Assembly (NCBI GenBank): GCA_946537975.1
Contig: CAMNGG010000226.1
Coordinates: forward strand, 1 to 48,912
Source of the DNA: an uncultured Treponema sp.
GTDB lineage: Bacteria > Spirochaetota > Spirochaetia > Treponematales > Treponemataceae
Length of the DNA stretch: 48,912 bases
Reading direction: 5' to 3'
The notes under the pieces were generated by a model that was not told the origin of the DNA, ran no database searches, and saw nothing but the letters and a program-made list of their open reading frames with translations. Made by a program: the position numbers and the translations under genes. Shown here piece by piece: positions 29,301 through 47,549 of this stretch. Position 1 is the first letter of the stretch. Each line of letters starts with the position of its first letter.

Positions 29301-32300
29301 CTCTGAGGAAGCGGGCAGCAGGGCCGCCGAGAATCATAGAATCACCAGAATAATCTGTTGTAAGATTTGCATCCACAAAACTTGCATCTGTAGCATTCAG
29401 TTTTTCTACTCCAACAATCTCAAGCTCTGGTGGCTGAGTATCTATGTTTACATAAATAACAGGGTCAGAGTCGTACAGGTTGTTAGACAAATCTGTAAGC
29501 TTAATTCTATGAAGCGTATCTGGATTACCATTGTTATCAAGAGCTTTAGATTCAAAAGTAGTATTCTCTGAATCGATTACCCTGAATTCTACTGTGTGTA
29601 TACCATCACTTGGGTTACCATTTTCATCAACAAAGTTAATTGAAGCCCCACTGGATGTCATCTGAACCTGATTCCAGCCATACAAACCGCTTTCAGTAGC
29701 AGTCTGGCCCTCTTTTACAATTCTGTATTCAACACAAGGATTACCAGAAGCATCAGTTTTTATTCCATCATCATCTGAAATTTTAAGGTTCAAAGTGCTT
29801 GTCTGCAAAAGCAGAGGATTGCTTGAAGAAATTGTATTTCCACCAGCAAGCAGAGTTGCATTAGTAACCGTAACAACAGGACGGTCTGAGTTTTTATCTA
29901 TAGTAAAGGTCTTGTAAGCCTTAGTATTATCATTCTGGTCTGCATCTACATGAGCTGGATCAACATTCGAGTTACCCGCCTCATCTTCTGCATAAAGCAG
30001 AACGTGAACTGTTCCAGTTGCTGTTCCGGCAGCAAGGTACTGTTCGGCATTAAAGTCTATCTGCTGAGTAAAGCTGTAAATATTATTTGGAGCCGCATTG
30101 TAGATTATAGTACCAGTATTTGTATTTGTTCCAGTATCTGTTGTAATTTTCTTAAGGAGTGTCCAGTCTTCCTTTGCGGCCGGAGGATTTGTGTTTGCTG
30201 CATCTGCCGGTACAGTGTAGTAAAGCATTTCTACAAATCTTGGAGTATGATCTTCGCTTACAGAACCTCTGAGTCTCTGTTTTCCGTTTAATGCAGAAGA
30301 GTTATCTGGTTCAACAATAGATGTTGTTGGTTTATCTGTATCAATATCAAGAGAAGTTATAGTAAGTGGATATGTTCTACCAACTCCAGAGGCTTCGGCC
30401 CAGTCTTCTGCCTCTACAGTAACCGCAGGGAAAGAAACTTCTGAAATACCGCTGAACCAGTTACCGTTCTGTGGAGTAAGAGTAAGAGTCCAGCTTGCAT
30501 AAGAAGCACCATCTGCAAATGAACACTTTGTAGAGCTTGAAGTAATAGGAGAAGACTCGGTTGGTATGTTGCGGTAACCGGTATAAGTAAGAGTACCATA
30601 TTGATTTGTAAAACTTACGTCTGTCTGATTTCTAACTGTAGCAGAGTCATAACCGCTTGCTGTATAAGAGTCTACAGAACTTGAGCTGGTAGGATCCATT
30701 ACAACAGTACCGTTAATCTTAACGCGTAAAGCCTTAAGACCAGCACCCTTTTCTGTTACAGTACCGCTTAAGGTCTGCATGCTTGTGCTTCCGTTAGTAA
30801 GCAGAGAAATAGGTGTATCTGCTGCAGGAGTAATTTCCGGATCCTTATCATCAACCTGAATCTTAAGAACAAACCAGCTGCCAGTATTACCACATTTATC
30901 TGTAGCACGTACAAAGACAAGATTTGGAATGCCGTCTACAGTGCTTTCAAAACCACTTATTGTTGCAGTTCCTATATGACAATTAATTTCCGCTGTCTCA
31001 CCGTAATGTGTATAAGTTCCATCTGTTATGTCGAAGCTTCCAGTTTTATAAGTTGCATTAGCAGGCGGATTTCCTTCTAACAGGCCAGTAGAAGGAATAG
31101 TTGTTAAAGAAGTTACCTGGGCTACAGGCAGCATTTTGTATTCAATTGATTTAATGCCGCTGTTTTCATTACCGCGTTCATTAACAAAGGTCATTCTTAT
31201 CTGAACAGAAGATTCACGGCCATAAGAACTTTCGCTGTAAGCACCACCAATAACTCCTGTTACAGGATTCTGCTGAGTTCCGATTCTGATTCCTTCATAT
31301 TTCCAGACATCATTATCACGGAGCTTGTAAGAATTTTCTTTGCGTGGATTTGATGTGTCTGCCGGGTCTGAACCACCTGTACCACCGGTAAGAACCTCAG
31401 GTCCTGCGGTATCAAAAATCAGAGAAATTTCCGGATAATCATAATGATTACCGGCTTTATCATAAACACGGATATTTACCTTTGCATCTGCGCTGGCAGG
31501 ATTACCGTTTTTATCCCAGTTTGCAAAGGAAGTTGCAAAGTCTGTTCCAAAGTCTGAAGCACTAAGTGTCCAGCTTGCGGCCAGGGTTTCTGCAGTAAAT
31601 ACATTTGCGCTTGTTGAAGCATCTGGTCCCTGAGAAATCTTTACAACAGTTCGGTCTACACTACTGTTATCTGTAGAAGTTCCCTTAACTGTAAAGCTTG
31701 AAAGAGCATCATTTGCTTTATTGTTTATATAATACTTTGTATTAGAGTCTTTATAAGATTTTGAATTTGATACAGAAACACCGCTTACAGACGGATTGGT
31801 TGTATCATAATCAAGAGTCATTATCTTTTTTCTTTCACCGGCAATTTTGTTTCCGGCAATATCTTCACCCTTTACATACAAGTCGCCGCTGGCAAAATCA
31901 TCATGACTTATTACCTGAACAAAAGATTTTACAGTTTTTGCAGTAGCGGCAGTCAAAGGTGTAGAAACTCTATAAGTTTCAGCATTTGCATCGGCAGTTA
32001 CAGTTTCAATATTTTCATTTGTAAGCGGAACGTTATAATATTTCTTTTCACTTGGGGTAATTGCAGTTGGACTTGTACTATTGGTTGTTTCAAGCTCAAA
32101 TTCCGGTTCCTTTACACCACTACCATTTTCTGTTACATCAGTATAATCATTATCACTATAGTTTCCAAAGATAACCAAATCTTTGTTGTTTACATAAGCA
32201 GTTCCATTTGGAGTCAGTAATGATGTTTCTTCATCTGTACTTGCATCCTTTAATTTGTAGCCGAATATATCGAGAGTTGGAGCTTTCTTATCAACCTTTA

Positions 32301-35300
32301 CGTTTATAAGAGTTGTTCTGATATTTGCAGTTTTATCTTCTGCCTTAATTGTTAAAGTCTTTATATCTCCATCACCAAAGGTTACATTTGCACTCCAGTT
32401 GCTGTTAATTGAAGCAGACTGAGTCATAACATTCCAGCTTGTGCCGTTATCAAGAGAATAATAAACCTTATCAATTCCAGAATGAGTATCTGCAACGGTT
32501 GCAGAAATATTTACATTATTCTTTTTGATATAGCCGATTGGAGCTTCAGCAGCTACTGCAGTTTCCGGCAGAGATTCAACATTATCTTCTTTATTTTTTT
32601 CATATCCATCAACTACAACCTGAGTAATAACTGGTTTATTAGCATCTACCTTGTATTCAAATTCCTTGTAATTTGACTGATCGTAAACATCTGTTGCGGT
32701 ATACCTAACCTTGTAGGTACCACTTGTAGAAGGCAAAGTGATTGTATCTGTAATTGTGCTTAAGTACTGAGTTTCAGGGGCTTTTACAAAGCTTGAAGAT
32801 AAAGATGTGGCAAGTGTTACAAAATCACTTCCACTCTTTACTAAATGTGCATTTGTAATTCCGTTGTCTGAATTGCTCTTAATTCCGCTGCCGTCTGAAA
32901 CAGTACCGGTAATAGTAAGAGTTTTTGTACACTCAGAGCTGCTTCCCGGATAATAAGAATTAACCGGATAAGTCTTTGCAGCAGTAGAATCTGAATGTAC
33001 AACTGTCAGGTCGCTGAAAGTTGGTGCACCGTCATCTACAGCAACAAAGAATTCTATGGTCTTAGAATCTTTGTCTGTCTGTCTTGTACTTTCGCTAAGG
33101 GCATACATATCCTTTACTTCAATAGTAATCTTGTATTTACCCTGTTGCAGTGCTTCTGTTGGTTGCAGTGCTTCTGTTGCAGACTTTTCAAGCTTGTATT
33201 CAATATTATATTCTTTAGGATTTCCATTTACAGTCAGTGCCTTTTCGCCATGCTTTGTAGAATCAGCCGCATTTTCCCATTTTACAATAACCGAGCCGAT
33301 TCCATCATCATCCTTTGCGAGACCATAAATTGTATTGTTGTTTATAGAACCGAATTTATTCTTTGTAGTTCCAAGCTCAGCATTGTCTGTAGAACTTATA
33401 GAAGCATCTGCATTACTTACCGAAATTGAAGGTTTATCAGTTTCCTGATTAATATTGATTTCTTTTACAGCTGAGTTTGCATTACCAGTAGAAAGAGTTG
33501 CGGTAGTTTCATTTTTGTTACCAACAATATCAGCTGCTTCAATTACAACCTTATAGCTTTCGCCATCGGTAAATTCATTTGTTGAAATAGGGAAGCTCCA
33601 GGATTCTGAAGGCGGAGTTATACTTCCCTGCTTTACAGGGGTAGCAATTGAATCATCACTTGAATTTATAACATACCAGTTAATGCTCTGCAAACCGCTT
33701 CCAGTATTTCCGCTGTCGCTTGCAGTACCCGAAACTGTAATATTTCCGTTTACATATTCCGTAGTAACTGCAGAAGCACCGGAACCTGTAGTTACGTTTA
33801 CAGTAGGAGTAACAGGACTTACAGAAACATCCGGCTTTTTATTATCTACATAGAATTTAATATTCTTTTCGCCAGTAAGATTATTTGAATCTTTTGCCCT
33901 AACCGTTACCGTGTAATAATATTTACTTTCCGATGCAGGTACAAAAGGCTCTGCATTTGGATTCTCAACTGATTTTCCGGTTATCTTTATATCAAAATAA
34001 TACTTATTCGTTTCTACCTGATCCTGCTGAAGGTTTATAACATCCCAGTCAAATCTGTCGCCTGTCACAGGAGTGCTTGTTGCAACATCAGTTACTGTAA
34101 GATTCTGAATACTGATTCCGCCATCTGCTACAGACTTTAAGGAAACACCGTCTACAATTACATGACCGCTTACAACAACGCCATCGGCACCATTTACAGC
34201 AGTTCCAAAAACAGTATCATCTGAACCAGTTTTTGAACCACAGGTTACAGCAGAAACTGTTACACGAGGAATACTGTTGCTTGTAGAAAGCTTAAACATA
34301 TAATGCTTGTTGTTTGCAGGAACAAGCTCTGTATCGTTTCGGTCTGTTCCAGTTACAACAAGCTGATAAATATGATTTGCAGTTAATTGATTGTTTTCTG
34401 TATCAAGTGTAAAAGTATAAGTCTTTATTGAGTCATCGGCACTTTCGTCCCAGAGTTCAGCAAGCTCTCCGCCAGGGCCGAGAAGGTGTTTACAGGCAAG
34501 CACATCAGAATTTCCAACTGGAAGAGTTCCGTCTGCAAATGCCTGTGGGCTGAGACTGGATTCAAAATCTGCTATTGTATAATAATTCTTTGTAGAATCT
34601 ATTTCGCCTAAATCATAAAGATTAATTTTTACAGTTCTCGGATCCGGGAAGCTTGCATCGCGGCCCGCAGTAAGAGTAAGAATAAGTGAACTGCCCGCAG
34701 AGTAAGAATGAATATTTGTTGCAACAGTACCCGCTTCAATTCCGCATTCATCCAGACTCCAGGTAGGATTATTATGAGGATTCAAGCTGAATTTAGAAGA
34801 GCCTTCTTTTGTAAGGCTGGTAGAAGAAGCGTAATTTTCAGGATTTGTAAGTACCGAAGCAATTCCTTCTATCTGTGAATGAGTATAATCATCACTCTGG
34901 CCCTTAAAAATCTGCATAAGCCGCTGAGCGGTAAGCGAATAATTTACTGCCAGATTCTCTTTAAAGTCATCTCCAAGAACATAATAACAGTCTGTCCGGT
35001 TTCCAGGTTCAGCGCCAGAATCACCCGGTTTTGTGTAAACCTTAGCATTATCTTCTACAAGGAAGCCACAGTAATAGAATTTATCCTCTGTATTATTGGT
35101 AATATCATATAATCTTTGATATTTAGCAAACTGCTCCTGATTTGAAGCGTTGTTTTTAGCAATAATAAGCGGATTACTAGAAGACATTGCGTTCAATTCT
35201 GCAGAGTCGGTTATTTCTATAGTTTCTATACTTGAATTAGCAATAAAATCACCTGTCTGGCCATCATATTCCCTGAAGGAAATTACCATTTTGGCTGTTT

Positions 35301-35862
35301 CGTGTTCTTCCGAAATATCTCCAGAAAGTTTTACCACGCTTCCGTAAATTGTCGGTTCAACACTCAAACCTTTAGCCAATGGCTTACTTACAATTAAAAC
35401 CGGCGCAGTATTATCAATTGAAATTGCGCTGGCCGCAACAGCAGACGATTTATCTGCACTATCGTATGCGACCGCATTAATTACATAGTTTCCGTCTGGA
35501 ATTTCCCATTGTTCATGACTATTAAAAGCATTTGTAGCCTTTGAAGTGTCTTTTGTATTGAGGGTAATAGACCAGGATGTTTTTTTCTCATCCAGATTCG
35601 CTAAATATGGGCCATAATTTTTATTAGTTTCTGTATTTACTAAGGTAATCTTTACAGCAGTTACAGACTGATCATCACTACAAACACCTGCTGCAACAAA
35701 AGAATCTCTTATTACCGCATTTTGAGGAGGGTAAGATATACCACTAGTAGGCACGGAAACATCGACAGCGGCACCGAGGCCTATTTCGCAGGAAAGGATA
35801 GCGAAAAAGGCTATAAAACTGAGGAAAGCAAAAAGCTGTCTTTTACGACTCTTTAATTTCAT
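23392..35862 (-). CDS. Giant Ig-like-repeat lipoprotein 2 (about 4156 aa)
   Basis: ATG at 35862 (MKLKSRKRQLFAFLSF...) preferred over TTG at 35874; lipobox ILSC then EIGLGAAVD; about 17 Ig-like boundaries by eye; C-terminus ...WGNGTAYPVLGYSIDNGGDDTIETAQMQ. Confidence 0.9.
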   Translation of the reverse strand: MKLKSRKRQLFAFLSFIAFFAILSCEIGLGAAVDVSVPTSGISYPPQNAVIRDSFVAAGVCSDDQSVTAVKITLVNTETNKNYGPYLANLDEKKTSWSITLNTKDTSKATNAFNSHEQWEIPDGNYVINAVAYDSADKSSAVAASAISIDNTAPVLIVSKPLAKGLSVEPTIYGSVVKLSGDISEEHETAKMVISFREYDGQTGDFIANSSIETIEITDSAELNAMSSSNPLIIAKNNASNQEQFAKYQRLYDITNNTEDKFYYCGFLVEDNAKVYTKPGDSGAEPGNRTDCYYVLGDDFKENLAVNYSLTAQRLMQIFKGQSDDYTHSQIEGIASVLTNPENYASSTSLTKEGSSKFSLNPHNNPTWSLDECGIEAGTVATNIHSYSAGSSLILTLTAGRDASFPDPRTVKINLYDLGEIDSTKNYYTIADFESSLSPQAFADGTLPVGNSDVLACKHLLGPGGELAELWDESADDSIKTYTFTLDTENNQLTANHIYQLVVTGTDRNDTELVPANNKHYMFKLSTSNSIPRVTVSAVTCGSKTGSDDTVFGTAVNGADGVVVSGHVIVDGVSLKSVADGGISIQNLTVTDVATSTPVTGDRFDWDVINLQQDQVETNKYYFDIKITGKSVENPNAEPFVPASESKYYYTVTVRAKDSNNLTGEKNIKFYVDNKKPDVSVSPVTPTVNVTTGSGASAVTTEYVNGNITVSGTASDSGNTGSGLQSINWYVINSSDDSIATPVKQGSITPPSESWSFPISTNEFTDGESYKVVIEAADIVGNKNETTATLSTGNANSAVKEININQETDKPSISVSNADASISSTDNAELGTTKNKFGSINNNTIYGLAKDDDGIGSVIVKWENAADSTKHGEKALTVNGNPKEYNIEYKLEKSATEALQPTEALQQGKYKITIEVKDMYALSESTRQTDKDSKTIEFFVAVDDGAPTFSDLTVVHSDSTAAKTYPVNSYYPGSSSECTKTLTITGTVSDGSGIKSNSDNGITNAHLVKSGSDFVTLATSLSSSFVKAPETQYLSTITDTITLPSTSGTYKVRYTATDVYDQSNYKEFEYKVDANKPVITQVVVDGYEKNKEDNVESLPETAVAAEAPIGYIKKNNVNISATVADTHSGIDKVYYSLDNGTSWNVMTQSASINSNWSANVTFGDGDIKTLTIKAEDKTANIRTTLINVKVDKKAPTLDIFGYKLKDASTDEETSLLTPNGTAYVNNKDLVIFGNYSDNDYTDVTENGSGVKEPEFELETTNSTSPTAITPSEKKYYNVPLTNENIETVTADANAETYRVSTPLTAATAKTVKSFVQVISHDDFASGDLYVKGEDIAGNKIAGERKKIMTLDYDTTNPSVSGVSVSNSKSYKDSNTKYYINNKANDALSSFTVKGTSTDNSSVDRTVVKISQGPDASTSANVFTAETLAASWTLSASDFGTDFATSFANWDKNGNPASADAKVNIRVYDKAGNHYDYPEISLIFDTAGPEVLTGGTGGSDPADTSNPRKENSYKLRDNDVWKYEGIRIGTQQNPVTGVIGGAYSESSYGRESSVQIRMTFVNERGNENSGIKSIEYKMLPVAQVTSLTTIPSTGLLEGNPPANATYKTGSFDITDGTYTHYGETAEINCHIGTATISGFESTVDGIPNLVFVRATDKCGNTGSWFVLKIQVDDKDPEITPAADTPISLLTNGSTSMQTLSGTVTEKGAGLKALRVKINGTVVMDPTSSSSVDSYTASGYDSATVRNQTDVSFTNQYGTLTYTGYRNIPTESSPITSSSTKCSFADGASYASWTLTLTPQNGNWFSGISEVSFPAVTVEAEDWAEASGVGRTYPLTITSLDIDTDKPTTSIVEPDNSSALNGKQRLRGSVSEDHTPRFVEMLYYTVPADAANTNPPAAKEDWTLLKKITTDTGTNTNTGTIIYNAAPNNIYSFTQQIDFNAEQYLAAGTATGTVHVLLYAEDEAGNSNVDPAHVDADQNDNTKAYKTFTIDKNSDRPVVTVTNATLLAGGNTISSSNPLLLQTSTLNLKISDDDGIKTDASGNPCVEYRIVKEGQTATESGLYGWNQVQMTSSGASINFVDENGNPSDGIHTVEFRVIDSENTTFESKALDNNGNPDTLHRIKLTDLSNNLYDSDPVIYVNIDTQPPELEIVGVEKLNATDASFVDANLTTDYSGDSMILGGPAARFLRVRVRAKDVGVGVRSVKVTAKFNNTAVTPITGANGSTWTAAADSENSNTDVYCDLVIPCTITASGNIVEADNATYVITVEAEDKTGQAGYGRKATESVTFNADTKKPVINVTAPSSEKNLSGSVTVEADVTENTKLYYSISPMVNSPDSTVAQWTFQRKIGTSDEFSNPENLPTADKSGATITVTSPLATVCAYRPVGNEDEFKSGFYMWLDGKTDESGVTIHGETLNEWIKKIGISTEHDLSTAVNSFNDIVKLYFHVKAIDKAGNENEKHYPLMVDPQGSRPVVNIGYPGNDKDGSTPERTLTLGGSPSIIGTATGVNNVDFVWMQIDTDADGDWDETDFNTLNTRLKEGKRVYTLGNMISKDSVTSLPVGAEVSQYAVKVPLSSISWSQKINICGELEPPESSSESTQNVTLWIYATDSQGYISSREIRRLIIDRDSPVIDQNLRLVQWASGKNGSNGFNVDSNGNITLVSGAVTAERSYTEGENIKGKWFLLGKVTDESGIQAIDFTVNNGSTVHAVTSTQDSYTGSGTHAGTYIRKFETSKTAADGTTVTVNNYIFCLPIGSETENAVGEYTIDFHAEEKEDTNPKPADATFKVTYDNKAPVVTEKLTGMAADAGTVAKPVTIENSNGVYTIKGQATEAEPGETGVDRIAFYFTRNIAGQTPSQATKIINPMRKVKTTANAIDYSGKTAENGLYEDGLYWESVTVNSVNLHSITVASVPSFVHIGGLAKVNGVLYRIEDISGSTIGLSGEPGTASSVKFAIADVVDNHTIEGEGDSDHFINTDVYGYGYYSNGSFDDGDYMIESLIEEVDAFKWEASINSKNISDGPVTLHYVVFDKAGNFSAEQTVECFVKNNGPRIAGVIFGTDEDGNGEVSDSELEQTKYQNAYEKGMNGRNKMVSVTFPANASEASASSVFAIKGRTRIKPEIVGGNGALSYTYTVAKRKTTVVNDQTVDAGDGWNDPYYSYTTAGSLGTNITGTAESDTVVELGANDGIDLTVAQLLAKDASNNEITDGENQKFVFTITDSTPGSSGVASQSANLNMILDVALKDVTPATNKIIPFYWNSSSSNSLKGNSKDNGHIDLTKDLPAAFSATATSGIFDRDPKVSGAFKLEGIAQDNIVLSSLSVIIGEGAGAHTYNIASYDSSAAETGFMAPASPAANSGWSVVIRNATYDEFMAAGYISALPQGVEGSDYVPYTSQAYGHVVHWEMTIETEVAAMSINPQLDLVITVSAADQGLPSLSGGSVSYTPNPFAYNGVTGTVGQTGGTSDGSAAYTCKYKIDVVPYIMGIKTKLSAKKKQNDSSEMDRTALGHYPVAKTERIGLYGFNLLNTTLYDSPVDAEGNPTTPHSAALATTKTKDLDGDGADDSTIDVYPTAANALNYFTSGNVYVKYGSGTGANAIISLNNYNDNDAKGSATASLPQRANYGKKATQTTYNKYFYNHKPNSSNNYILTDDTVLDVWNFNSEAGKPNPSGRIEEVVMKINPVSKIIGFSFLNSSMHFATPNGKDNSYKDRGKTGVGDARTTSFLAYDYRGWSYAIDAGGDEVDPVKFWILDTSGTDKGSVNFEYVNQKGKRSETDGANIDLRYKVRSPSIATSKAENSTTTNTTNMYLAYYDSFNDEIRFKAGNTNKKEMFVASSSYKKYSCSTSQVIATNASTNLPSGTQYQYTGTPLGGAGEFVALDVVPKYKLVKVDNTDTIVENTSIDHDVVVIVWYDVAAKALKYAYNTNPRDLTWQSDDATKNSTGTAGKDANYRGLNRVNWTGEKTIFENAGEYCQIKVDGKGGVHITAYDNQSGDLRYAYLPAYNSAYSEDSMSCIVDSFNETGSHMIMDVALDADNNPVPYISYTCGNMPKIAYKHTSTVKDGAVNDMFTGDWEVGYVPNTSTIADLEVKRRNNLDNRINVALWKDANGKQIDSKKTDGTIGSSSADKDNGTIWGNGTAYPVLGYSIDNGGDDTIETAQMQ

Positions 35863-35904: not shown

Positions 35905-35931
35905 TTGTCGGCGATTTTTAAAGAAACTTTT
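35905..35931 (-). promoter_or_regulatory. sigma-28 (FliA)-type promoter for giant genes 2 and 1
   Basis: Minus strand AAAAGTTT-CTTTAAAAATC(11)-GCCGACAA versus consensus TAAAGTTT-N11-GCCGATAA; about 40 bp upstream of the start codon. Confidence 0.65.
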
Positions 35932-35979
35932 TTATTTTTGATTTTTGAAAAACAATTGTTATAATAGAAGAAAAAGAGT

Positions 35980-36075: not shown

Positions 36076-39000
36076 TTACTTCATCTGGGCTGTCTCCAGG
36101 CAGGTACCACTGTTGGATTCAATTGCGTAACCGAGAATCGGGTTTGCGGTTCCGTTTCCGTAAATGTTGCCGTTTGTGGTTCCACTTAAATTATCGGCAG
36201 AAGTCTTAGTTTTCGACACTGTAAAGTTTTCATCATTACCTCTTACAATTGTTCCGTTCTGCTTCCACAAACAGATATTCATCTTATCGTAATAATTTGT
36301 TGTGAGCTTCTTAGAACTTGGAACAAGAGAGATTTCCCAGTTTCCGGTAAACATATCTTCGCCATCATCAGTGCCTGTTCCCTGTGCCTTATAATTCATT
36401 GTTCCGGATTCAGGAACCACGAGTTTTGCTACACAAGGCAGGCGGGCAGTTCCATTAAAGTAACTGATGTAAGGAATAACGTTACCACTTGAATCCTTAC
36501 CAACATCCAGAGTAATTCGCTCACCGGTAATTGTGAAGGAGTCTACCTTTACAGAATCTGTTGCTTCGGTATAATTTGCCCCTGGTGAATCAAGATGTGC
36601 ATAACGCAAGCTTCCGTCTACATAGGCCGCAATATGAACTCCACCGCCTGAGTCAAGCTTAACGGTACAGTGCTCACCACCTTCTGTGAAGATAATCTGG
36701 TTGTTCTTCCAGCCGTCGGCAGCTCCATTGTCCAAGCCGCTTGTTGGATTGTCATTGTAAGCATAGCGGCAGTTTGTACCGTCGTACCAGACCGCAACTA
36801 CTGTGTCGTGCGCCGCATCGGTGCCAGCCTTTGCATCGATGGCGACGTATTTGTAAGCAGTGTAGCCGGTGTTATATCCAGATGGATATTTTTGCTTTTG
36901 ATGTACAGGTATCTTTACCGTTTCAATTGTCGGAATTAAATACTCACAAGTACCAGAATCAACAGGCTTACCATCTTCACCTTTTATTCGGACAAAAACC
37001 GGATAACCATAATTTCTGATTGCTGCAGCTTTTGTGTCTGTAGCAAGGTCGGCAACCTGATAAGTATATTGACCATACAAAGGATTATCTTCGGTAAAGT
37101 TATATTTTAGTTTTGTTTCAGTACCTTCTCCCTCTACTATATAAGCCTTATCCTTATTATTTTTATAAAGGTGTTTAACCCCATTAACATCCTTAAACTT
37201 AAAGTAATCATTTCCTTCTATAACAATAGCATCTTTATCAATCTTTGTTTTTCGATATCTGACTACTGTATCATTTAATGCCTTTCCATCATTATCAACT
37301 ATGTCAGCATCTATTAATCTATCTGGAATATCCTCTACTGTAAAATCAGCCTCATTTTTCTGACCATTACTGTTCAATTGATAATCCGTTCCCGCAATTA
37401 AGCTAAAGTGATCAGTATTGGCTTCCATATATGCCTGATAGTCTTTAGATTTGTAAAAGTACCCAAGGTTATCAACAAAATCATCCTTATCATTTAGTGC
37501 ATGATGCATATGACTTTGGAAAGTTCCTGCACCAGAAAATTTACCATTTGCATCAAGAGCAATTTCTGCTCCAGTTAAATATTCCTCATTATAGTCTCCA
37601 TCGACTGTTACATTTTTTTCTCTATCCACAGACCATTTTTCAAAGGTTGTGCTCTGTATAGTTTTACCATCTGTAGATGTAGTTTCTCCCTTAACCCAAG
37701 TCTTAGGAACTTCCTGACTATATCTGAATCTTATCTGCCCCTGTGTACTGTCATAGTATGCAAGATAAACAGCTGTAGTGGCAGAATCTCCCGATCCATG
37801 AACTGTTGCGGCAATAGAAGGAGAAAAGAATCTAGTCTCTGTAAGCGAAGAGGTTTCCGGAATAGAGCCCTTTATAGGCAGCTTGTACATTGTGGCTGTT
37901 GGAATTTGGCCGGCAAGGTTATTCAAATAACTTGCCTCAAAATCCTTTGTAGTTTTTGTCCACTCTGGTACAACCGGATACGTATTTGTTGTCATCTCCG
38001 TCTTAAAGTCCGCATCGCTTCTATACCAGCTTGGAACTGCCAGAGATTCAAGACGAACAGCTCTTTCTCCATAATAGTTTCCATTCGTATCGCTTCCACT
38101 TCGTCCCCAGCGGTTATAGAAATAAGAGAATCGGCCGGCATGTAAACTTCCAGAACCCGGGTTTGTATCAAGTCCGGTTCCTGTTGCATGAGCAAAACCT
38201 AAGTCATCATAAGCAAAGGCAATATTGTTATAAGTTGCGTAGTTGTTCTGCCAAAGACTGTAGGAATAAATATCTTTTGACGGATCCTTATTTGAATCAG
38301 CATCATATTTATCACCTAATCCACCGGCCATAGCAAAATCACCAGGCCCACTTACAAAGGCTAAACCTATCTTACCAGTTTTTGGGTTAATACTCATAAT
38401 AGGCTCACGAAGCTCACCACTTCTAGGTACAGCCGCATCACTGTCGAACTGCCAGATATCGATTTCAAGGTCGTCGGTGAGCAGGTTGTTGCTGGTGCGG
38501 TTTGGCATGCGGTTGTAAGCATAAGCGTTCTTTTCGGCATATAAGCTGTCTTCTGTAATGTTAGTTGTAGCAGTTTTGTATGCACCGCAGGCATTATTGT
38601 CGTTTTTGTTGTTTAAGGTTTCTACACCGTTTACTACAATACTTATTACTCCAGATTTTGCATCGTCTGGTATTGTTATGCCTGATGATGCATAAACTGC
38701 GCTGCAAGTTCCATTTTCCTTTTCAAAAGTTACGGTTCCGCCAAGATTATAGCCATTTATACGAATCGATTCTCCCTTTCTGGCAATGTAATGTCCAAGA
38801 GCGGTTCGGCTATATGCTCCCTTTATACTGCTCTTAAGATTCTTTGAGAAACTAGTCTCTATTCCTGTAATATAAGGCACAACATCAACTTTGTAGCTGG
38901 CAGTATGGCTGAGATTTGCTGTTTGACCGACATTTTGTGCATCATCATATGCCTGAATCTGGAGTTTTACATCTGTCTGAGCTGCATTTGTGATTTTTGC

Positions 39001-42000
39001 AGTATCCCAGATAAGGCTCCAGTTGACAGTATGTCCGTTATCAACATCAAAACTGTTTGTGTTCTGTAGAATTGTGAATTCATAGCCCTCATCTGCAAGA
39101 CTTCCGATTGTTGTAAAGTCTGCAGTGCCATCAGCATTTTTCCACTTACCTTGGGTCTTGTTGTAAGTTGCAACTTTTGTTGCTGTAGAAAGGCCTGTCA
39201 TTCCCGGCAGAGTAGCATAAACTTCTGTAAGCAGTTTATTATCTGTAAGGCTACCTGTTAGTTTCACCTTACCAGAAAGCTTAGGGTCATTATCGAACTC
39301 GCCGCTCGTTTCTGTATTTTCAACATTAAAGTTTGTAGAAGGCAAATCTGAAGGTAACTCTATATGACCTTCCTGATTGTATACAGAATTATCTGTTCGG
39401 CTGTTCCAGTAAACCGGATTTATCGTAACTACAGGAGCCACCTCATCACGAACAAGAAGATTTATATTTGTGATATTGATACTGAGTTTATTCGAAGCCT
39501 GCGAGGCAGTTTCTGCAAATCTTGTTTTACCTTCTGTACTGTCGGCAATTTCATAATTGATGAAGAAGTCATCGCTGTTTGCTGTTGAATTATGGATAAG
39601 CCATTCTATATCATGAGTAATTGTACCTGTCTGAGTTGAAAGGACTCCGTCAGAAATATAATCATCTGTATCTGAGAAGTTGCCGTCATCATAATTATTA
39701 TTTCCATCCATCAGCTTTGTAGCCACAGACTGCCATTCGGTAGTTTTTTTTGTCTTCCAGCGATAGTATAAATCACCGTTACCGCCTACAACTTCCGGAA
39801 CTACCTGCATAAGGCCTTTGACAGTAATATTTGAAATATTGATTGTTTCCACACCCAGTGAATAGGCTGCTGGTTTTGCGGCCATTCCTTCAGGGTAGTA
39901 ATAGCTTACTTCACCCGCACCCGCCGCTTCAGAAATTGTTTCATCCTGATTTACATCAAGACCAATTTTTACGCTTACAAGGCGAGGCTTATTATTTTCT
40001 ATTGTGGCTCCTGTTACACTGTCGTGAGAAGAGTTTCCGGCTTTATCGAAGGCAACATAATGAATATCTATATCGCCGTCTGGAATGTTCTTTGAATTTA
40101 CCCAGAGCTCCCAGGTCCAGCTTGTTGAATCATCCTTGTGAAGATTCTCCATTATCATATCGTCATCATCATAGGTAAAGTTACTGCAATAACCATAACC
40201 GTAATCTGAATCGGTAATATAGGCTGGAGAAGCGGGTTTACTTTCCTGAGAAGTATTATCTACAACATTCGCTACCGCAAAATAAACGTCTGTTGCTGAC
40301 GAAGTGTCTCCCGGCTCTCCGGAAAGGACAACTGAGCTTCCGGAAATTGAATTGATTCTATAAACTACGCCCTTAACCTTTGCAAGTCCGCCTGCGTGAA
40401 CAAAGCTTGCAGGAGCCGCAGAAAGGCTAAGAGTATCTGAAGTAATTGAGCTTGCAGAATATTTTCCCCAATAGAGATTGTCTTCTATATCTTTTTTAAT
40501 CTGACCGGCGGTCCAGCTGGCAGAATCGTCGGCTATTGGTGTGAGTCGGCTTGCACTTGCACTTCTCTTATACATAGGGTCGTAAACATAAGTTACCCCG
40601 TCAAGAGTTCTTGTAAAGTAAACCGCAACACGCTCAACACCGGTATCTCCAGAATTTCTTTCATAAGCGGCAGAACCAAGCTGATAGTAACCAAGAGAAT
40701 TCTTTACCGAAGTATTGATATTGAATACATCGGCATTTGCGGGAGCAAGCGTTGGAGCCTGATTATCATATCTGACCATAAAGGACTTGCTTGTTGAAAG
40801 AGCTCCCTGCAATTTATTTTCTTCCACGCGGATAGAAAATTCCTTACCGCCAACTCCAGTTTCTGCACCGACTTTTATTTTGAGATTATAATTATAGATT
40901 GTTTCTCCACTAGAGTTTGTTTCGGAAACTCGTCTGAACTGATAATCACCACTTGTAATTTCTGTTGTTGCGCTATCAACCGAAGCCAGCTGGGCACCTG
41001 TTCCTTCTGTACCTTCTGTTACAGTAATTGTACTGATACCGGAGCTTTCGTCTTTTATCTGACCTTCAAGCCACCATTCTCCCTTTACGCTCATTCCTTC
41101 TTTATAAGCCTGTTCTGCGGTTACACTTCCCGCAGCATTATAGCGCACAAGTTTAAGAGAAGACTGAACAAAGTACGGTGCATCCTTATCTACAGTAAAG
41201 CTTCGGCTTGCGACATTACTTTTAAGAATTGTGCTTCCGTCATCATTATCTGTTGCATAAACATTTATTTTTATAGTATTAGAGGTGCTTCCTTCTGGTA
41301 TGAGTTCATTTCTTGTATTAAGATTCTGATACCATGAACCGCCTGAAACTGGAACCATAATTCCGATGTCAGAAATGTTTGTTGCATCTGGTGCAGTAAT
41401 GCCGGCATCTGCAAGAGTCTGGTTTGTACTTATTTTTCCAAATGTATAATATGGACTGTCATCACTCTTTGTTACGGCACTTAGAATGTTGTAATCTTCA
41501 AGATCCCAGTCGCCTGAGCCATGTTCATTAATATCAATCTGAAGCCATGCAAATCTTGCTTCAATATTATCGTTGGCGGTTCCCATTACACGGATGGTTC
41601 CACCAAGAGTTGTATTATTATCCGGATAGGTGATTGTAACTGTAGGTCTGTTACCCTGAGGGTCGACTACTACCGGAGCACTCTTATAAGATATATTTCC
41701 ACAATTATCAACGGCTTTAATCCAGACGTAAAGAGTTGTAAAGTCTGTATATGTTCCCGCAATAACATCAGCTTCGCTTGTAATTCCTAAATCCCAGAGA
41801 TAATTCTTAAACAAAGGAGCATGGGTTGTTGTTGCTGAAGTGCTTCCGTCAAAGTAAACGTTATAGGTAAGGGAAGCATGTGTTTCTTCTGCCCAGGATG
41901 AATCATCTACAGCAGGCTGAGTATTTGTCGCTTTAATAGTATAGTAGATTGCGGGATTTGTAAGTTCACCTTCAATAGAACCGGTAACAACTGCTGTACT

Positions 42001-45000
42001 TGTTATAGTTGATTCCGGCGCATTGATTTTAATAACTGGAGCAGTGTTATCTACTGTGCGGCTGAAGTTCTTTTGTGTTTCAAGGCCGGACTTATCTTTA
42101 GCAGTTACGGTAAAGGTAAGGGTGTCTGAGAATGGCACTGAGGCTGGATCCGCAGAAGCATTTACCGCTGTTGCAAAATTTGTAAGAGTAATTATAAACT
42201 CGTTTTCTGTGCTTACGGAGCTTTCTACTGTACAGTCACCTTCTCCGGCCGTGATTGTATAATCTACACCGTCTTTTGTCATACTTCCGCTGAAGGAAGC
42301 TGTAACTCCAGAGGTTGCTGTATCCCCAAAAAGACCGCTTGTATCAGACGCTTCTGCCCTGATATATAAGGTGTCATAATTTCCACCAAGATGAATTGCT
42401 GGACTATTTACATCTGTATAGAAGGTTGAATTATCAACACTAATTCCGGTTATTGTGAGAAGCGGAGGATTTGTATCTAGACAAACCGGTAGCAGAGTGT
42501 TTCCTGCTGCTTTAGTAGCACCAAGCTGATTTGCAGTGTCACTCTCTGTTTCCGGTGAATCCTGAATTATTGGAGTTGCAAGAATTTCTGCATCTGAACT
42601 TGCTTCTGTGATTGCGGCTGACCTAAAGATTGTTCCTGTTGCCGCGCCGGAAGCATCAATTCCTTTATCTTTTACTTCAAACTTAAGCACATAAGAACCA
42701 TCACCTGGAAGTCTTACATTCCATGAACCGCCGGAATAGGTTGCTGAGGCTTCTGTATAGCTTGCCTCCGCTTCTGTGGCTGATGCGGCTCTTCTATAAA
42801 TCTTAAAGCCACCGGCCGCAATGCCGTCATCATCAATTACAGAACCATAAACTGTTGAAGAACCCTTTACCCAGATTTCATCACCATTTTTCTGAGTAAA
42901 GTTTACTCCTGAACCGATTGTAATAATCGGGCGGTCGCTGTTCTGGTTGATTATGAGCCTTCTTGTAACTACATCATCATCTTCTGTTTCATTTTCTGCG
43001 GCATCTTTTGCCTTAAGGGAAAGGGTTAATTCTTTACCGGCAGAGAAGGAATTATCGAGTGCTATAGTATCTATTGTAACAGACCACTGGCCGTTTGCAT
43101 AAGTAATTGTTCCCTTTCCGGAATCTGCTGCCGGTGCAGGATATTCAAATTCTTTTGTTACCGCACTATCACCGCTGCCACAAACTGCCTTCAAAGTTAT
43201 TGCTGTAACTTCGTTCGGTTCTGTTGCTTTTCCGGTAACCTTAATAATTTTGTTAACCTCAGCATCTTCCTCCGGAGTGAGGAAGCTTACTTCTGGAGGA
43301 GTATCATCTTTGTTGATTACTCCAATTGACTGAGGTGCAGAAGTATTATTTGCGGCATCTGTTGCTGTTACAAGAATTGTCTGATAACCGCTTATAGAAG
43401 CCAGAGCTGTAGCCGGAATTTCTGCATTTACAAGACGATAACCAGAAGAATCCGGCTCTCCAAGAGTAATTACAGGACTAATTTCAGTTCCGCCAAGCTT
43501 CATGGTAAAGGAATTTTCATCTTCTATTCCACTTTCTGTATCTCTAACCTTAAAGCTAACCGTCTTACTCTGTTTTCCATTTGTAAGATGTACGCTTGAA
43601 AAATCATCCGCATTTACTTCGACAAAATCTGGAGCGGTAATATCTACATTTATTGAGTAACAGTAATAAGTACTTGTATTTCCGTCTCCATCCTGTACTT
43701 CAGCATAATCTATACTTGTGTTTCCAACATTATCTTCTGCTACAATGACAAGGTAATTCTTTCCTTCTTCAAAGCCGCCGATTGTTGTTTTATAGTTTGT
43801 TGCTATACTCTTTCTGAACTTTACATAGCCCTTGTCCAGAGTATAATTATTTACAAGCTCTCCGCCACCGATTCTGTCTGTTGTATTTGTTTCATTTGCT
43901 GGAGTGCCTGTTGGAAGAATATTGTATTCTACATTGTTATTTTCTACAGAAGTCAAAGGATAAAAGACATCTGTTTTATTTGCGATTACATAATTTTTAA
44001 GAGTTTCCGGAGAGATAAAATAAAGCTTATCTGCGTTTTCACCACTTCCTTCTTGCGGCTCATTTTCTGCTGTTAGATTTTCATCAAAACAGATTTCACG
44101 CCTGAAGGTTTTGTAATAATACTTACTGATTCCAGAACCACCGGCGTTATCCGGATAGTTTCCGTGTACTACCATTGTAAAGGCATTTCCATAAGTTCCC
44201 TTTGAATACTTTCCGCCGACACCTTCTCCAATGCGGGATACAAGATCCTTCTGTGCATCATCTATTGCATGATCTGCCTTTGGAGCTGTCCGGTCAAAAA
44301 TGATATCGAGGCTTTCTGTTGCGACATTTCCGGCCTTATCTTTTATAGTAAGAGTTGCGGTAGCTCCGCTGCATGGTGCAGTTTCCACCCCGCTAAAGCT
44401 GCTCAAATCAATAGCGCTGAAATTCCACTGTCCAAGAAGGCCGTCAAAGGTTCCTGTCGCTGTTTGACTTGAATTATCCTTATTTGTTACTACAAGCTCA
44501 ACCAAATTTATTCCAACGTTGTCTGTGGAAATTCCCGAAATCTTAAAGGTCTTGTTCCGGTTGTCTACATAGTAATGCCCGTCGGCTGAATATGCATCTT
44601 TATCTTCAGCCCCTTCTCTAACTTCTATAAGTCGTAAATTGCTTACGGTTGGAGCATCATCATCAACGACAATATCAAAAATCTTAACATCGCTTGTATG
44701 CTTGCCTGTCTTATTTACTCCAGATACAACAAACCTTCCGGTTGCTGCAGGAGTAAATTCTGCCTTCCAGGATTTTATTTCTGCCTTGTTTGGAAGATTA
44801 TCAGAATCATAAGCATGATAGCTTGTATCAGCTGGAATAGATGAAGCCGCAGTGCCTGTTTCACTTGTAGAATAAGTTACTGTAACATCGGAGGTAACAT
44901 CACTATTACCAAGCTTAAAGGTCAGCCCGTCTACACCACTTTGAGAATCTTCATATTTTCCGTAAACTGTAAACTGAGCTCCACTCTTAATATAGAGCGT

Positions 45001-47337
45001 ATTTTCAAGCGTGCTTGCATTTGTACCAAACTTAAAGAATCTTGCATCAAGCTCTGGTTCGGAAGTATCTATATTAAATGTAAAGGCTTGTGGAGCAGAA
45101 AGATTTCCTGATTTATCTTTCACCTGAATATAAAGTGTATTGCCCCCAGCCGAAGTATTTTCGTCAAATTCAACACCCTTAAGGTCAAAAGTGTAGAGGT
45201 TAGGATTTTCAGGATCCGAAGTGTCTCTTGTAAATTTTGAAGTTTCTGCACAGTCCGCAAGCTCATGAAGATATGCCGGTATGCTTTCTGTGCTTCCAGG
45301 TGTCTTTACATAATAGTACAGAGTCTCCGGATTTTTTTCGGTACAGCTTCCTTTTACATTCAGATATTGTTTTCCGTAATAGGCTGTATTAATGTGTGTT
45401 ACAATATTAGTATCTGAATAAACTACAGAAAGTCCATCGTTTACAGAAGGACGTGTATCATCAATTTCAAGTGCTACTTCTTTTTCTGATGATGCCGCGC
45501 CGCCTTCAACAAACTGGTCTGTTTCTGTATTTATAGAGGCACCTTTTACCTTGTATTTAATAGAACTCTTATTTTTCGTTTTATAATTTTCAAGGGCGGC
45601 TCTGTTTTTGATTATGGATGTCGTGAATACTCCATTTACCACTGTGGATGTAAGGGTATCGCCGTTTTTTGTTGTAATTGGATTTGTTATTGGTCCAGAA
45701 ATTATGATTGGGGTATCTGTACTGTCTTTCAACAATTCATTATCTTCCCAGACGGCATAGCTTGAGGCCCCACCCTGATATAAGAGATTGATTGTAATCG
45801 AATTCTTTTCTGTAGGATTTGTAACTCCGGCTGTATTTTCATTTGAAGTTACAAAATCCTGCCGTGGATTCACTTCGAGCTCAATAAAGCTTCCGCTGGT
45901 AATAAGCTTAAAGCCGTAGATTGCATTAGAGTCTGTAACAATATTATCTTCGGTCTTAGTATTGTCGTGCCCCGCAACATAAACTCTGTAAAAGTGGTCA
46001 ACCTGCAGTCCGGAATAATTAATATTACTGATTAGAGATGCTGTCTTAAACTTATAGGAATCTCCGGAAACCGTAATTGTTACTTTATCAGAATCATGAG
46101 CATGAACTCCTGTTTCGCTGTCTGTTTTAGGCTGGACGAGCCAGATTTTACTTTCCTCTGTCAGGCTTTTAGGGCTTCCATCTGCTTCACATTCGCGTAA
46201 ATAAATTCCGATTGAATCTTCATCTATTGGATTGTTATCCAGACCCGGATTTATCTGTACTTCAAGATAGTTATTTCCGGCCGTAAGCTGATAGGCAGTT
46301 TCATCCAGAGAGCCACCAGCGGCCAGTGGTGAGCGGGCACTAACAACGAAGGTCGGGCTGTTATCCGGATTCAGCTTAAATTTTCCTATTGCCTTGCTTG
46401 CATTGGAAAGAGTTTCTTTTACATTGCTTACAGAAACCGTTCTGCCCTCGGCTCCGGAATAAGTTCCGCTTTGAATTTTATATAAGCCGGTCGCCTTATA
46501 ATCACTAATAAGGGTAGAAATTTCCTTGTAGAGATAATAAGAGGTCTGCTTGTTTCCGTTTTCGTCTATGGTTCCATCAGCAAAATATTTTTTTGCATTA
46601 TCATAGGCTTCGAGCTTGAAATATCGGGGAATCGCACCGTTGCCCTTTGTCGTGTAGCCGTAAATTGCCGAATAATCATTATCTACATTTTCTTCGAAGA
46701 CAGCGACATTTAGGTCTATTGTTGGAGGAACATTGGTCAGAGTTACCTTCTTTATAAAGGAAGCATCCGAACAATCTGGCGAAGAATAAACGCTTACATC
46801 AATTTTTTCCACAGAATTATCATCTGCTGCCTGTCCAACAATTGAAAAAATCTGTCCAAAGGTATCAAAACGGTCGTCCGCATCTGCTATTGTTGTACTC
46901 GGCTTCTGCAAAATCATTACCGGCGGAGTATTATCTATAGTAAAAGAACGGGCCATTGTGGTGGTGTGTCCGCCATTATCTTTGATGGCAACAACGGCTT
47001 CGTAGGTTCCATCGAGCAGACCGGCTTCCCGCGGATTAATCGGGATATTCCAGCTTCCCCTGGCGTTTTTATCTGATGGTGACGTAAAGGTTCCGTCAAA
47101 ATGTTTTTTATCGTTATTTTCAAGACGGGTCAAATCAACTGTAACAGAAGAAATTGAACCATCATCTGTCCAGGTACCCTGAATGGCAAAATCATCCCTA
47201 ATAACAGAGTCTGACGGCGGGTTCGTAATCTCAAGAGACGGAGCCTCTGTATCTACTGACGAACCAAGTCCTATCTCACAGGATGCAAAAAAGAAAATAG
47301 CTAGTGCTGATAAAATTAAACTTCTCTGTTTCTTCAC
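36076..47337 (-). CDS. Giant Ig-like-repeat lipoprotein 3 (about 3753 aa)
   Basis: GTG start with SD GAGGT; lipobox FASC then EIGLGSSVD; about 14 Ig-like boundaries by eye; C-terminus ...YGNGTANPILGYAIESNSGTCLETAQMK. Confidence 0.9.
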   Translation of the reverse strand: MKKQRSLILSALAIFFFASCEIGLGSSVDTEAPSLEITNPPSDSVIRDDFAIQGTWTDDGSISSVTVDLTRLENNDKKHFDGTFTSPSDKNARGSWNIPINPREAGLLDGTYEAVVAIKDNGGHTTTMARSFTIDNTPPVMILQKPSTTIADADDRFDTFGQIFSIVGQAADDNSVEKIDVSVYSSPDCSDASFIKKVTLTNVPPTIDLNVAVFEENVDNDYSAIYGYTTKGNGAIPRYFKLEAYDNAKKYFADGTIDENGNKQTSYYLYKEISTLISDYKATGLYKIQSGTYSGAEGRTVSVSNVKETLSNASKAIGKFKLNPDNSPTFVVSARSPLAAGGSLDETAYQLTAGNNYLEVQINPGLDNNPIDEDSIGIYLRECEADGSPKSLTEESKIWLVQPKTDSETGVHAHDSDKVTITVSGDSYKFKTASLISNINYSGLQVDHFYRVYVAGHDNTKTEDNIVTDSNAIYGFKLITSGSFIELEVNPRQDFVTSNENTAGVTNPTEKNSITINLLYQGGASSYAVWEDNELLKDSTDTPIIISGPITNPITTKNGDTLTSTVVNGVFTTSIIKNRAALENYKTKNKSSIKYKVKGASINTETDQFVEGGAASSEKEVALEIDDTRPSVNDGLSVVYSDTNIVTHINTAYYGKQYLNVKGSCTEKNPETLYYYVKTPGSTESIPAYLHELADCAETSKFTRDTSDPENPNLYTFDLKGVEFDENTSAGGNTLYIQVKDKSGNLSAPQAFTFNIDTSEPELDARFFKFGTNASTLENTLYIKSGAQFTVYGKYEDSQSGVDGLTFKLGNSDVTSDVTVTYSTSETGTAASSIPADTSYHAYDSDNLPNKAEIKSWKAEFTPAATGRFVVSGVNKTGKHTSDVKIFDIVVDDDAPTVSNLRLIEVREGAEDKDAYSADGHYYVDNRNKTFKISGISTDNVGINLVELVVTNKDNSSQTATGTFDGLLGQWNFSAIDLSSFSGVETAPCSGATATLTIKDKAGNVATESLDIIFDRTAPKADHAIDDAQKDLVSRIGEGVGGKYSKGTYGNAFTMVVHGNYPDNAGGSGISKYYYKTFRREICFDENLTAENEPQEGSGENADKLYFISPETLKNYVIANKTDVFYPLTSVENNNVEYNILPTGTPANETNTTDRIGGGELVNNYTLDKGYVKFRKSIATNYKTTIGGFEEGKNYLVIVAEDNVGNTSIDYAEVQDGDGNTSTYYCYSINVDITAPDFVEVNADDFSSVHLTNGKQSKTVSFKVRDTESGIEDENSFTMKLGGTEISPVITLGEPDSSGYRLVNAEIPATALASISGYQTILVTATDAANNTSAPQSIGVINKDDTPPEVSFLTPEEDAEVNKIIKVTGKATEPNEVTAITLKAVCGSGDSAVTKEFEYPAPAADSGKGTITYANGQWSVTIDTIALDNSFSAGKELTLSLKAKDAAENETEDDDVVTRRLIINQNSDRPIITIGSGVNFTQKNGDEIWVKGSSTVYGSVIDDDGIAAGGFKIYRRAASATEAEASYTEASATYSGGSWNVRLPGDGSYVLKFEVKDKGIDASGAATGTIFRSAAITEASSDAEILATPIIQDSPETESDTANQLGATKAAGNTLLPVCLDTNPPLLTITGISVDNSTFYTDVNSPAIHLGGNYDTLYIRAEASDTSGLFGDTATSGVTASFSGSMTKDGVDYTITAGEGDCTVESSVSTENEFIITLTNFATAVNASADPASVPFSDTLTFTVTAKDKSGLETQKNFSRTVDNTAPVIKINAPESTITSTAVVTGSIEGELTNPAIYYTIKATNTQPAVDDSSWAEETHASLTYNVYFDGSTSATTTHAPLFKNYLWDLGITSEADVIAGTYTDFTTLYVWIKAVDNCGNISYKSAPVVVDPQGNRPTVTITYPDNNTTLGGTIRVMGTANDNIEARFAWLQIDINEHGSGDWDLEDYNILSAVTKSDDSPYYTFGKISTNQTLADAGITAPDATNISDIGIMVPVSGGSWYQNLNTRNELIPEGSTSNTIKINVYATDNDDGSTILKSNVASRSFTVDKDAPYFVQSSLKLVRYNAAGSVTAEQAYKEGMSVKGEWWLEGQIKDESSGISTITVTEGTEGTGAQLASVDSATTEITSGDYQFRRVSETNSSGETIYNYNLKIKVGAETGVGGKEFSIRVEENKLQGALSTSKSFMVRYDNQAPTLAPANADVFNINTSVKNSLGYYQLGSAAYERNSGDTGVERVAVYFTRTLDGVTYVYDPMYKRSASASRLTPIADDSASWTAGQIKKDIEDNLYWGKYSASSITSDTLSLSAAPASFVHAGGLAKVKGVVYRINSISGSSVVLSGEPGDTSSATDVYFAVANVVDNTSQESKPASPAYITDSDYGYGYCSNFTYDDDDMIMENLHKDDSTSWTWELWVNSKNIPDGDIDIHYVAFDKAGNSSHDSVTGATIENNKPRLVSVKIGLDVNQDETISEAAGAGEVSYYYPEGMAAKPAAYSLGVETINISNITVKGLMQVVPEVVGGNGDLYYRWKTKKTTEWQSVATKLMDGNNNYDDGNFSDTDDYISDGVLSTQTGTITHDIEWLIHNSTANSDDFFINYEIADSTEGKTRFAETASQASNKLSINITNINLLVRDEVAPVVTINPVYWNSRTDNSVYNQEGHIELPSDLPSTNFNVENTETSGEFDNDPKLSGKVKLTGSLTDNKLLTEVYATLPGMTGLSTATKVATYNKTQGKWKNADGTADFTTIGSLADEGYEFTILQNTNSFDVDNGHTVNWSLIWDTAKITNAAQTDVKLQIQAYDDAQNVGQTANLSHTASYKVDVVPYITGIETSFSKNLKSSIKGAYSRTALGHYIARKGESIRINGYNLGGTVTFEKENGTCSAVYASSGITIPDDAKSGVISIVVNGVETLNNKNDNNACGAYKTATTNITEDSLYAEKNAYAYNRMPNRTSNNLLTDDLEIDIWQFDSDAAVPRSGELREPIMSINPKTGKIGLAFVSGPGDFAMAGGLGDKYDADSNKDPSKDIYSYSLWQNNYATYNNIAFAYDDLGFAHATGTGLDTNPGSGSLHAGRFSYFYNRWGRSGSDTNGNYYGERAVRLESLAVPSWYRSDADFKTEMTTNTYPVVPEWTKTTKDFEASYLNNLAGQIPTATMYKLPIKGSIPETSSLTETRFFSPSIAATVHGSGDSATTAVYLAYYDSTQGQIRFRYSQEVPKTWVKGETTSTDGKTIQSTTFEKWSVDREKNVTVDGDYNEEYLTGAEIALDANGKFSGAGTFQSHMHHALNDKDDFVDNLGYFYKSKDYQAYMEANTDHFSLIAGTDYQLNSNGQKNEADFTVEDIPDRLIDADIVDNDGKALNDTVVRYRKTKIDKDAIVIEGNDYFKFKDVNGVKHLYKNNKDKAYIVEGEGTETKLKYNFTEDNPLYGQYTYQVADLATDTKAAAIRNYGYPVFVRIKGEDGKPVDSGTCEYLIPTIETVKIPVHQKQKYPSGYNTGYTAYKYVAIDAKAGTDAAHDTVVAVWYDGTNCRYAYNDNPTSGLDNGAADGWKNNQIIFTEGGEHCTVKLDSGGGVHIAAYVDGSLRYAHLDSPGANYTEATDSVKVDSFTITGERITLDVGKDSSGNVIPYISYFNGTARLPCVAKLVVPESGTMNYKAQGTGTDDGEDMFTGNWEISLVPSSKKLTTNYYDKMNICLWKQNGTIVRGNDENFTVSKTKTSADNLSGTTNGNIYGNGTANPILGYAIESNSGTCLETAQMK

Positions 47338-47422
47338 TTATTTACCTCACATAAATGCGCATTATTAAAAAAGAAACGTTTTTAAATGGATATTCAAAAT
47401 GAATATAATTCCACAAATTCTT

Positions 47423-47450
47423 TTATCGGCAGATTTATAACAATTCTTTA
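47423..47450 (-). promoter_or_regulatory. sigma-28 (FliA)-type promoter for giant gene 3
   Basis: Minus strand TAAA-N16-GCCGATAA (perfect -10 octamer); about 85 bp upstream of the GTG start. Confidence 0.7.
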
Positions 47451-47511
47451 ATCAGGCAAAATTTGTGAGGTCGGGAAAATTATGGAAGGAAAATTAATCA
47501 ATTTAATTATA

Positions 47512-47549
47512 GATAAAAAAAGACCTGGATTTTTGAAGTCTAGGTCTTT
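47512..47549 (-). terminator. Rho-independent terminator after the 238-aa lipoprotein gene
   Basis: AAGACCTGGA...TCTAGGTCTT near-perfect stem; minus strand continues TTTTTTT. Confidence 0.7.

Follow-up and report, generated by a model that had tools for sequence, protein, structure and literature searches.

A predicted sigma-28 (FliA) promoter upstream of a giant Ig-domain lipoprotein gene in an uncultured Treponema

Giant lipoprotein 3, a 3,753-aa protein of an uncultured Treponema sp., is probably produced along with the late flagellar genes, from a FliA promoter with a predicted start near position 47416 of the window (the whole 48,912-nt stretch of contig CAMNGG010000226.1, assembly GCA_946537975.1, that was analyzed). 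The site is very probably a sigma-28 (FliA) promoter, as judged from its sequence, spacing and conservation, the presence of FliA and FlgM, and the occurrence of the motif at flagellar genes; giant lipoprotein 3 probably belongs to the late flagellar regulon. The promoter class itself is known, and what is new is the apparent recurrence of giant Ig-type lipoproteins as FliA targets in this Treponema genus. The genome, here termed G000, is a 3.6-Mb draft (81% complete, 430 contigs). The features of the promoter region are as follows:

47512..47549, minus strand: terminator-like hairpin and T run at the end of the upstream gene, which encodes a 238-aa lipoprotein (from sequence and fold)
47445..47451, minus strand: -35 element TTAAAGA (TAAA = 47450-47447); flaB of G000 has TTAAAGT, the homolog L226 TTAAAGA
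47431..47446, minus strand: 16-nt spacer, matching the spacing peak at 16 upstream of giant genes and of relatives' flagellin genes
47423..47430, minus strand: -10 element GCCGATAA of the predicted sigma-28 promoter, the exact E. coli-type octamer
47416, minus strand: predicted transcription start, about 7 nt past the -10 element, from sigma-28 promoter geometry
36076..47337, minus strand: giant lipoprotein 3, 3,753 aa, GTG start, Ig-like domains, C-terminal YGNGTANPILGYAI...ETAQMK (from the open reading frame list and Pfam)

On re-reading, the minus strand at 47450-47423 is TAAA-GAATTGTTATAAATCT-GCCGATAA, with 16 nt between TAAA and GCCGATAA, so that both the coordinates and the spacing given in the first-pass annotation are correct; the GTG lies 86 nt downstream. 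A start at 47416 would give the mRNA a leader of about 79 nt, whose RNA fold is unremarkable; GAGG occupies the Shine-Dalgarno position before the GTG at 47337, and the lipoprotein signal ends in FFASC. On the other side, the hairpin-T run (47549-47512; fold -10.1 kcal/mol, z -2.7) is terminator-like and would separate the promoter from the upstream lipoprotein gene; the consensus scan reports its inverted repeat on the plus strand only. The annotation had measured the site against TAAA-N15-GCCGATAA, which is indeed the E. coli FliA consensus and is identical to the window site in both elements, with a spacer of 15 rather than 16. In this Treponema genus, by contrast, N16 is the usual spacing of flagellin promoters, so the extra base is no defect.

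The octamer taken in isolation is not improbable, contrary to what the annotation had argued: the window should contain about one copy of GCCGATAA by chance (1.07 expected, 2 found), and genome-wide counts are near those of the controls, so the exact 8-mer was dropped as proof. The second copy, at 36191, lies inside giant lipoprotein 3 and is not positioned as a promoter. The two-element pattern TAAA-N13-17-GCCGATAA occurs once in the window versus 0.04 expected (it was seen in 4 of 100 shuffles); across the genome it has 9 matches versus 6 for the reversed control, and the degenerate TAAA-N15/16-NCCGAWAW is rarer than its control (60 versus 90). With the bare motif so close to control counts, the string by itself carries little weight, and the informative points are where the site lies, that it fully matches the local flagellin promoter, and that it turns up again before homologous genes. 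That short matches such as the bare 8-mer arise by chance also lends support to a different reading, in which an ordinary sigma-70 promoter in the 175-nt gap drives the gene and the sigma-28-like site is a coincidence; AT-rich gaps always hold weak -10-like hexamers, and in T. denticola sigma-70 drives the flagellar genes flaA and flaB1 (PMC9481697). However, a simple scan of the gap finds no TTGACA/TATAAT-like sigma-70 pair on the minus strand, and chance would leave unexplained both the peak at 16-nt spacing on one strand and the conservation of the two elements alone in L226, as described below. We consider a sigma-70 promoter with a chance match improbable.

The genome does encode a FliA-type factor, which disposes of one outcome that the annotation had named as counting against a sigma-28 promoter: FliA is matched by TIGR02479 at 293 bits (cut-off 189.6) and is the sole factor above the FliA cut-off. 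FlgM (PF04316) is above cut-off as well, and a search of 21 other members of the genus found it in every one. Of 59 genomes searched for FliA itself, 57 have it above the cut-off, and the other two (G025 and G026) are incomplete drafts. Five relatives of one family (G043, G046, G049, G051 and G057) have a FliA-type factor above cut-off and no detectable flagellin; FlgM was absent from the three of them that were searched. Retention of the factor in flagellin-less relatives means that it can have other targets, and this, together with several more sigma-70-family matches in G000 (the FliA profile also matches, at 95 bits, a frame of 264 aa, as well as some shorter frames), would fit a reading in which the conserved motif is recognized not by FliA but by a different alternative sigma factor from its superfamily. 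We regard this as slightly less probable still than a sigma-70 promoter: the motif and its spacing equal those of the flagellin genes in the same genomes, just one factor of G000 passes the FliA family cut-off, and preliminary data indicate that T. denticola FliA binds such a promoter, that of flaB2 (PMC9481697).

The match to flagellin promoters was scored with a weight matrix trained on the flagellin promoters of 12 relatives only, a small set with none from G000. The window site scores 23.6 and the genome's own flaB site 24.8, and the window site is the top scorer among 70 upstream regions of homologous giant genes. Upstream of relatives' flagellin genes (n = 47), the spacing is 16 in ten cases and 15 in three, with none on the reverse strand; counts at a spacing of 17 with a degenerate -35 element are largely identical sites read as TTAA.

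The annotation had also allowed that the motif might be common and randomly placed, which holds for the bare string and does not hold for the high-scoring intergenic sites, found at flaB, flgN, fliS, flgM, an HD-GYP gene and others. At flaB (flagellin, G000:C366) the sequence is TTAAAG-N14-GCCGATAT, equivalent to TAAA-N16 to the -10 element; it shares TTAAAG, the 16-nt spacing from TAAA and GCCGATAW with the window site, and differs in that its -10 element ends in T rather than A and that its target is a flagellar structural gene. TAAA-N15-TCCGATAT stands before a flgN-type gene that lies upstream of flgL, flgM is preceded by TTAA-N16-ACCGATAA, and high-scoring sites also stand before fliS and the HD-GYP gene, the latter scoring 23.6 (in Pfam, the FliS and HD-GYP identities are above cut-off and FlgN is just below). 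The sigma-28-like motif thus occurs at the class III flagellar genes flaB, flgN, fliS and flgM of G000. Further high-scoring intergenic sites precede genes without a known flagellar role, so the set extends beyond flagellar genes; conversely, the matrix scan gives no high-scoring site at most MCP gene loci in G000, so the regulon is no simple copy of the enteric one.

Homologs of the N-terminus of giant lipoprotein 3 were found in 46 of 59 genomes. In the 70 upstream regions of giant genes, NCCGAWAW is present in 32 regions on the coding strand, against 7 on the other strand and 5.3 in shuffles, and GCCGATAA in 9 regions, against 1 and 0.25. For the pattern TNAA-Nx-NYCGAWAW, x equals 16 in 18 of the 70 regions; other spacings are seen 0-4 times, and the reverse strand has none. 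Sites of at least 10 bits precede 29/70 giants versus 24/232 background genes drawn from sampled stretches (Fisher p 2.6e-8), and versus 5/70 on the reverse strand (Fisher p 1.4e-6), both p-values being somewhat optimistic because some upstream regions come from related genes; among giants not close behind another reading frame, 22 of 49 have such a site. A single-sequence scan gave one homolog, L226, from an uncultured Treponema, which is nearest to giant lipoprotein 3 (62% identity). Alignment of its upstream region is poor outside two blocks, ATTAAAGA and CCGATAA, which are again 16 apart, and the spacer between them has diverged; at the place aligned with the -10 element it carries ACCGATAA, and its matrix score is 19.1.

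Since only about 40% of the giants (29/70) exceed 10 bits, such control is either not universal or has disappeared or been superseded in some species. A good site is missing from many homologous giants, and the family must therefore use other promoters as well. This raises a refinement of the main reading, namely that the FliA promoter is genuine and contributes little, most mRNA coming from a second, condition-specific promoter; we think it rather unlikely, though appreciably less so than the two readings above, and against it the window site is among the strongest matches in the sampled genome. Taken together, the presence of FliA and FlgM, the flaB-like site, the matrix score, the spacing peak and the conservation in L226 support the sigma-28 promoter proposed in the annotation.

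From these data we infer FliA binding, the start site, the coupling to FlgM and the role of the protein. FliA-bound RNA polymerase would recognize TTAAAG-N14-GCCGATAA and begin transcription near 47416, and the resulting mRNA, with its leader of about 79 nt, would encode the giant Ig-domain lipoprotein. Because FliA has an anti-sigma factor, FlgM, itself behind a similar site, giant lipoprotein 3 would be produced late, after completion of the hook-basal body and alongside flagellin, FlgN/FlgK/FlgL and FliS. The protein may serve as an extended, adhesin-like fiber of the envelope or surface, present only in cells that are building flagella.

Two further giant genes lie downstream in the window:

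35905..35932, minus strand: weaker sigma-28-like site AAAA-N16-GCCGACAA before giant lipoprotein 2, score 11.5
23392..35862, minus strand: giant lipoprotein 2, ATG at 35862, homologous N-terminus (open reading frame list)
11608..23379, minus strand: giant lipoprotein 1, 12-nt gap after giant lipoprotein 2 (open reading frame list)

The weaker site sits behind a hairpin-T run of its own. Upstream of giant lipoprotein 1 there is no strong sigma-28-like site (best score 5.5), and this gene is probably co-transcribed with giant lipoprotein 2. Pfam gives weak Ig-like matches in giant lipoprotein 3 and no Ig matches in giant lipoprotein 2. A structure model of the first 400 residues of giant lipoprotein 3 is for the most part of good confidence (mean pLDDT 83.7) and beta-rich, and its structural matches are partial and mostly to Ig-like proteins, large adhesins among them. 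A model of the C-terminal 674 aa was discarded (mean pLDDT 45.9), and a propeller-like look of this region is a guess. Many giants carry YGNGTxNPVLGYxI...ETAQMK right before the stop codon (window 36076-36180 and the ends of L229-L240). In two genomes, G003 and G004 (L241 and L242), a giant lipoprotein gene lies near rsmI-flgM, in divergent orientation.

Non-flagellar genes under the late flagellar sigma factor FliA are known in other bacteria (an E. coli FliA map is given in PMC4183435), and giant lipoprotein 3 would resemble them in being such a gene. In our literature search, no paper placed a giant Ig-domain lipoprotein of this family under FliA, nothing relevant came up on Treponema giant Ig-like lipoproteins or on a Treponema FliA regulon containing them, and there was no account of when giant Ig-domain lipoproteins are made. 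Such lipoproteins occur widely among these Treponema genomes, and spirochete flagella are located inside the periplasm; assigning the lipoproteins to the late regulon connects spirochete motility with the envelope or with adhesion in a way that can be tested. We see an even chance that, genus-wide, giant Ig-repeat lipoproteins (3,000-5,000 aa) are a recurrent output of FliA/FlgM, such that cells with periplasmic flagella become coated or tethered only once the flagella are complete. Among the closest known systems is flaB2 of T. denticola, which has a mapped transcription start, a -35 element TTAA and a -10 element CCGATAA, and is assigned to sigma-28 (PMC9481697). The window site is like it in both elements, in the group of organisms and in the presence of FliA and FlgM; it differs in preceding a giant lipoprotein gene, whereas the T. 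denticola promoter drives a core flagellin gene. As a local promoter model, TTAAAG-N14-GCCGATAW should be usable across the genus.

Several other sites were noted in passing. A TetR-type regulator in three genomes (L124:5659 on the minus strand, L207 and L209) has a conserved palindrome, AACTAATTAACGTTAGTT or a variant of it, directly preceding a CCGATA -10-like sequence; the palindrome is probably an operator, and the regulator's high-scoring site, probably confounded by it, was set aside. In the gap that separates a STAS-domain gene from a divergently oriented membrane-protein gene, GCCGATAA occurs on both strands (L112:15748 and about 15800), possibly as a pair of promoters. The best sigma-28-like score in the genome, 25.0, belongs to a site (L005:1501-1528) that lies 19 nt before the ATG of a 283-aa lipoprotein with no Pfam match.
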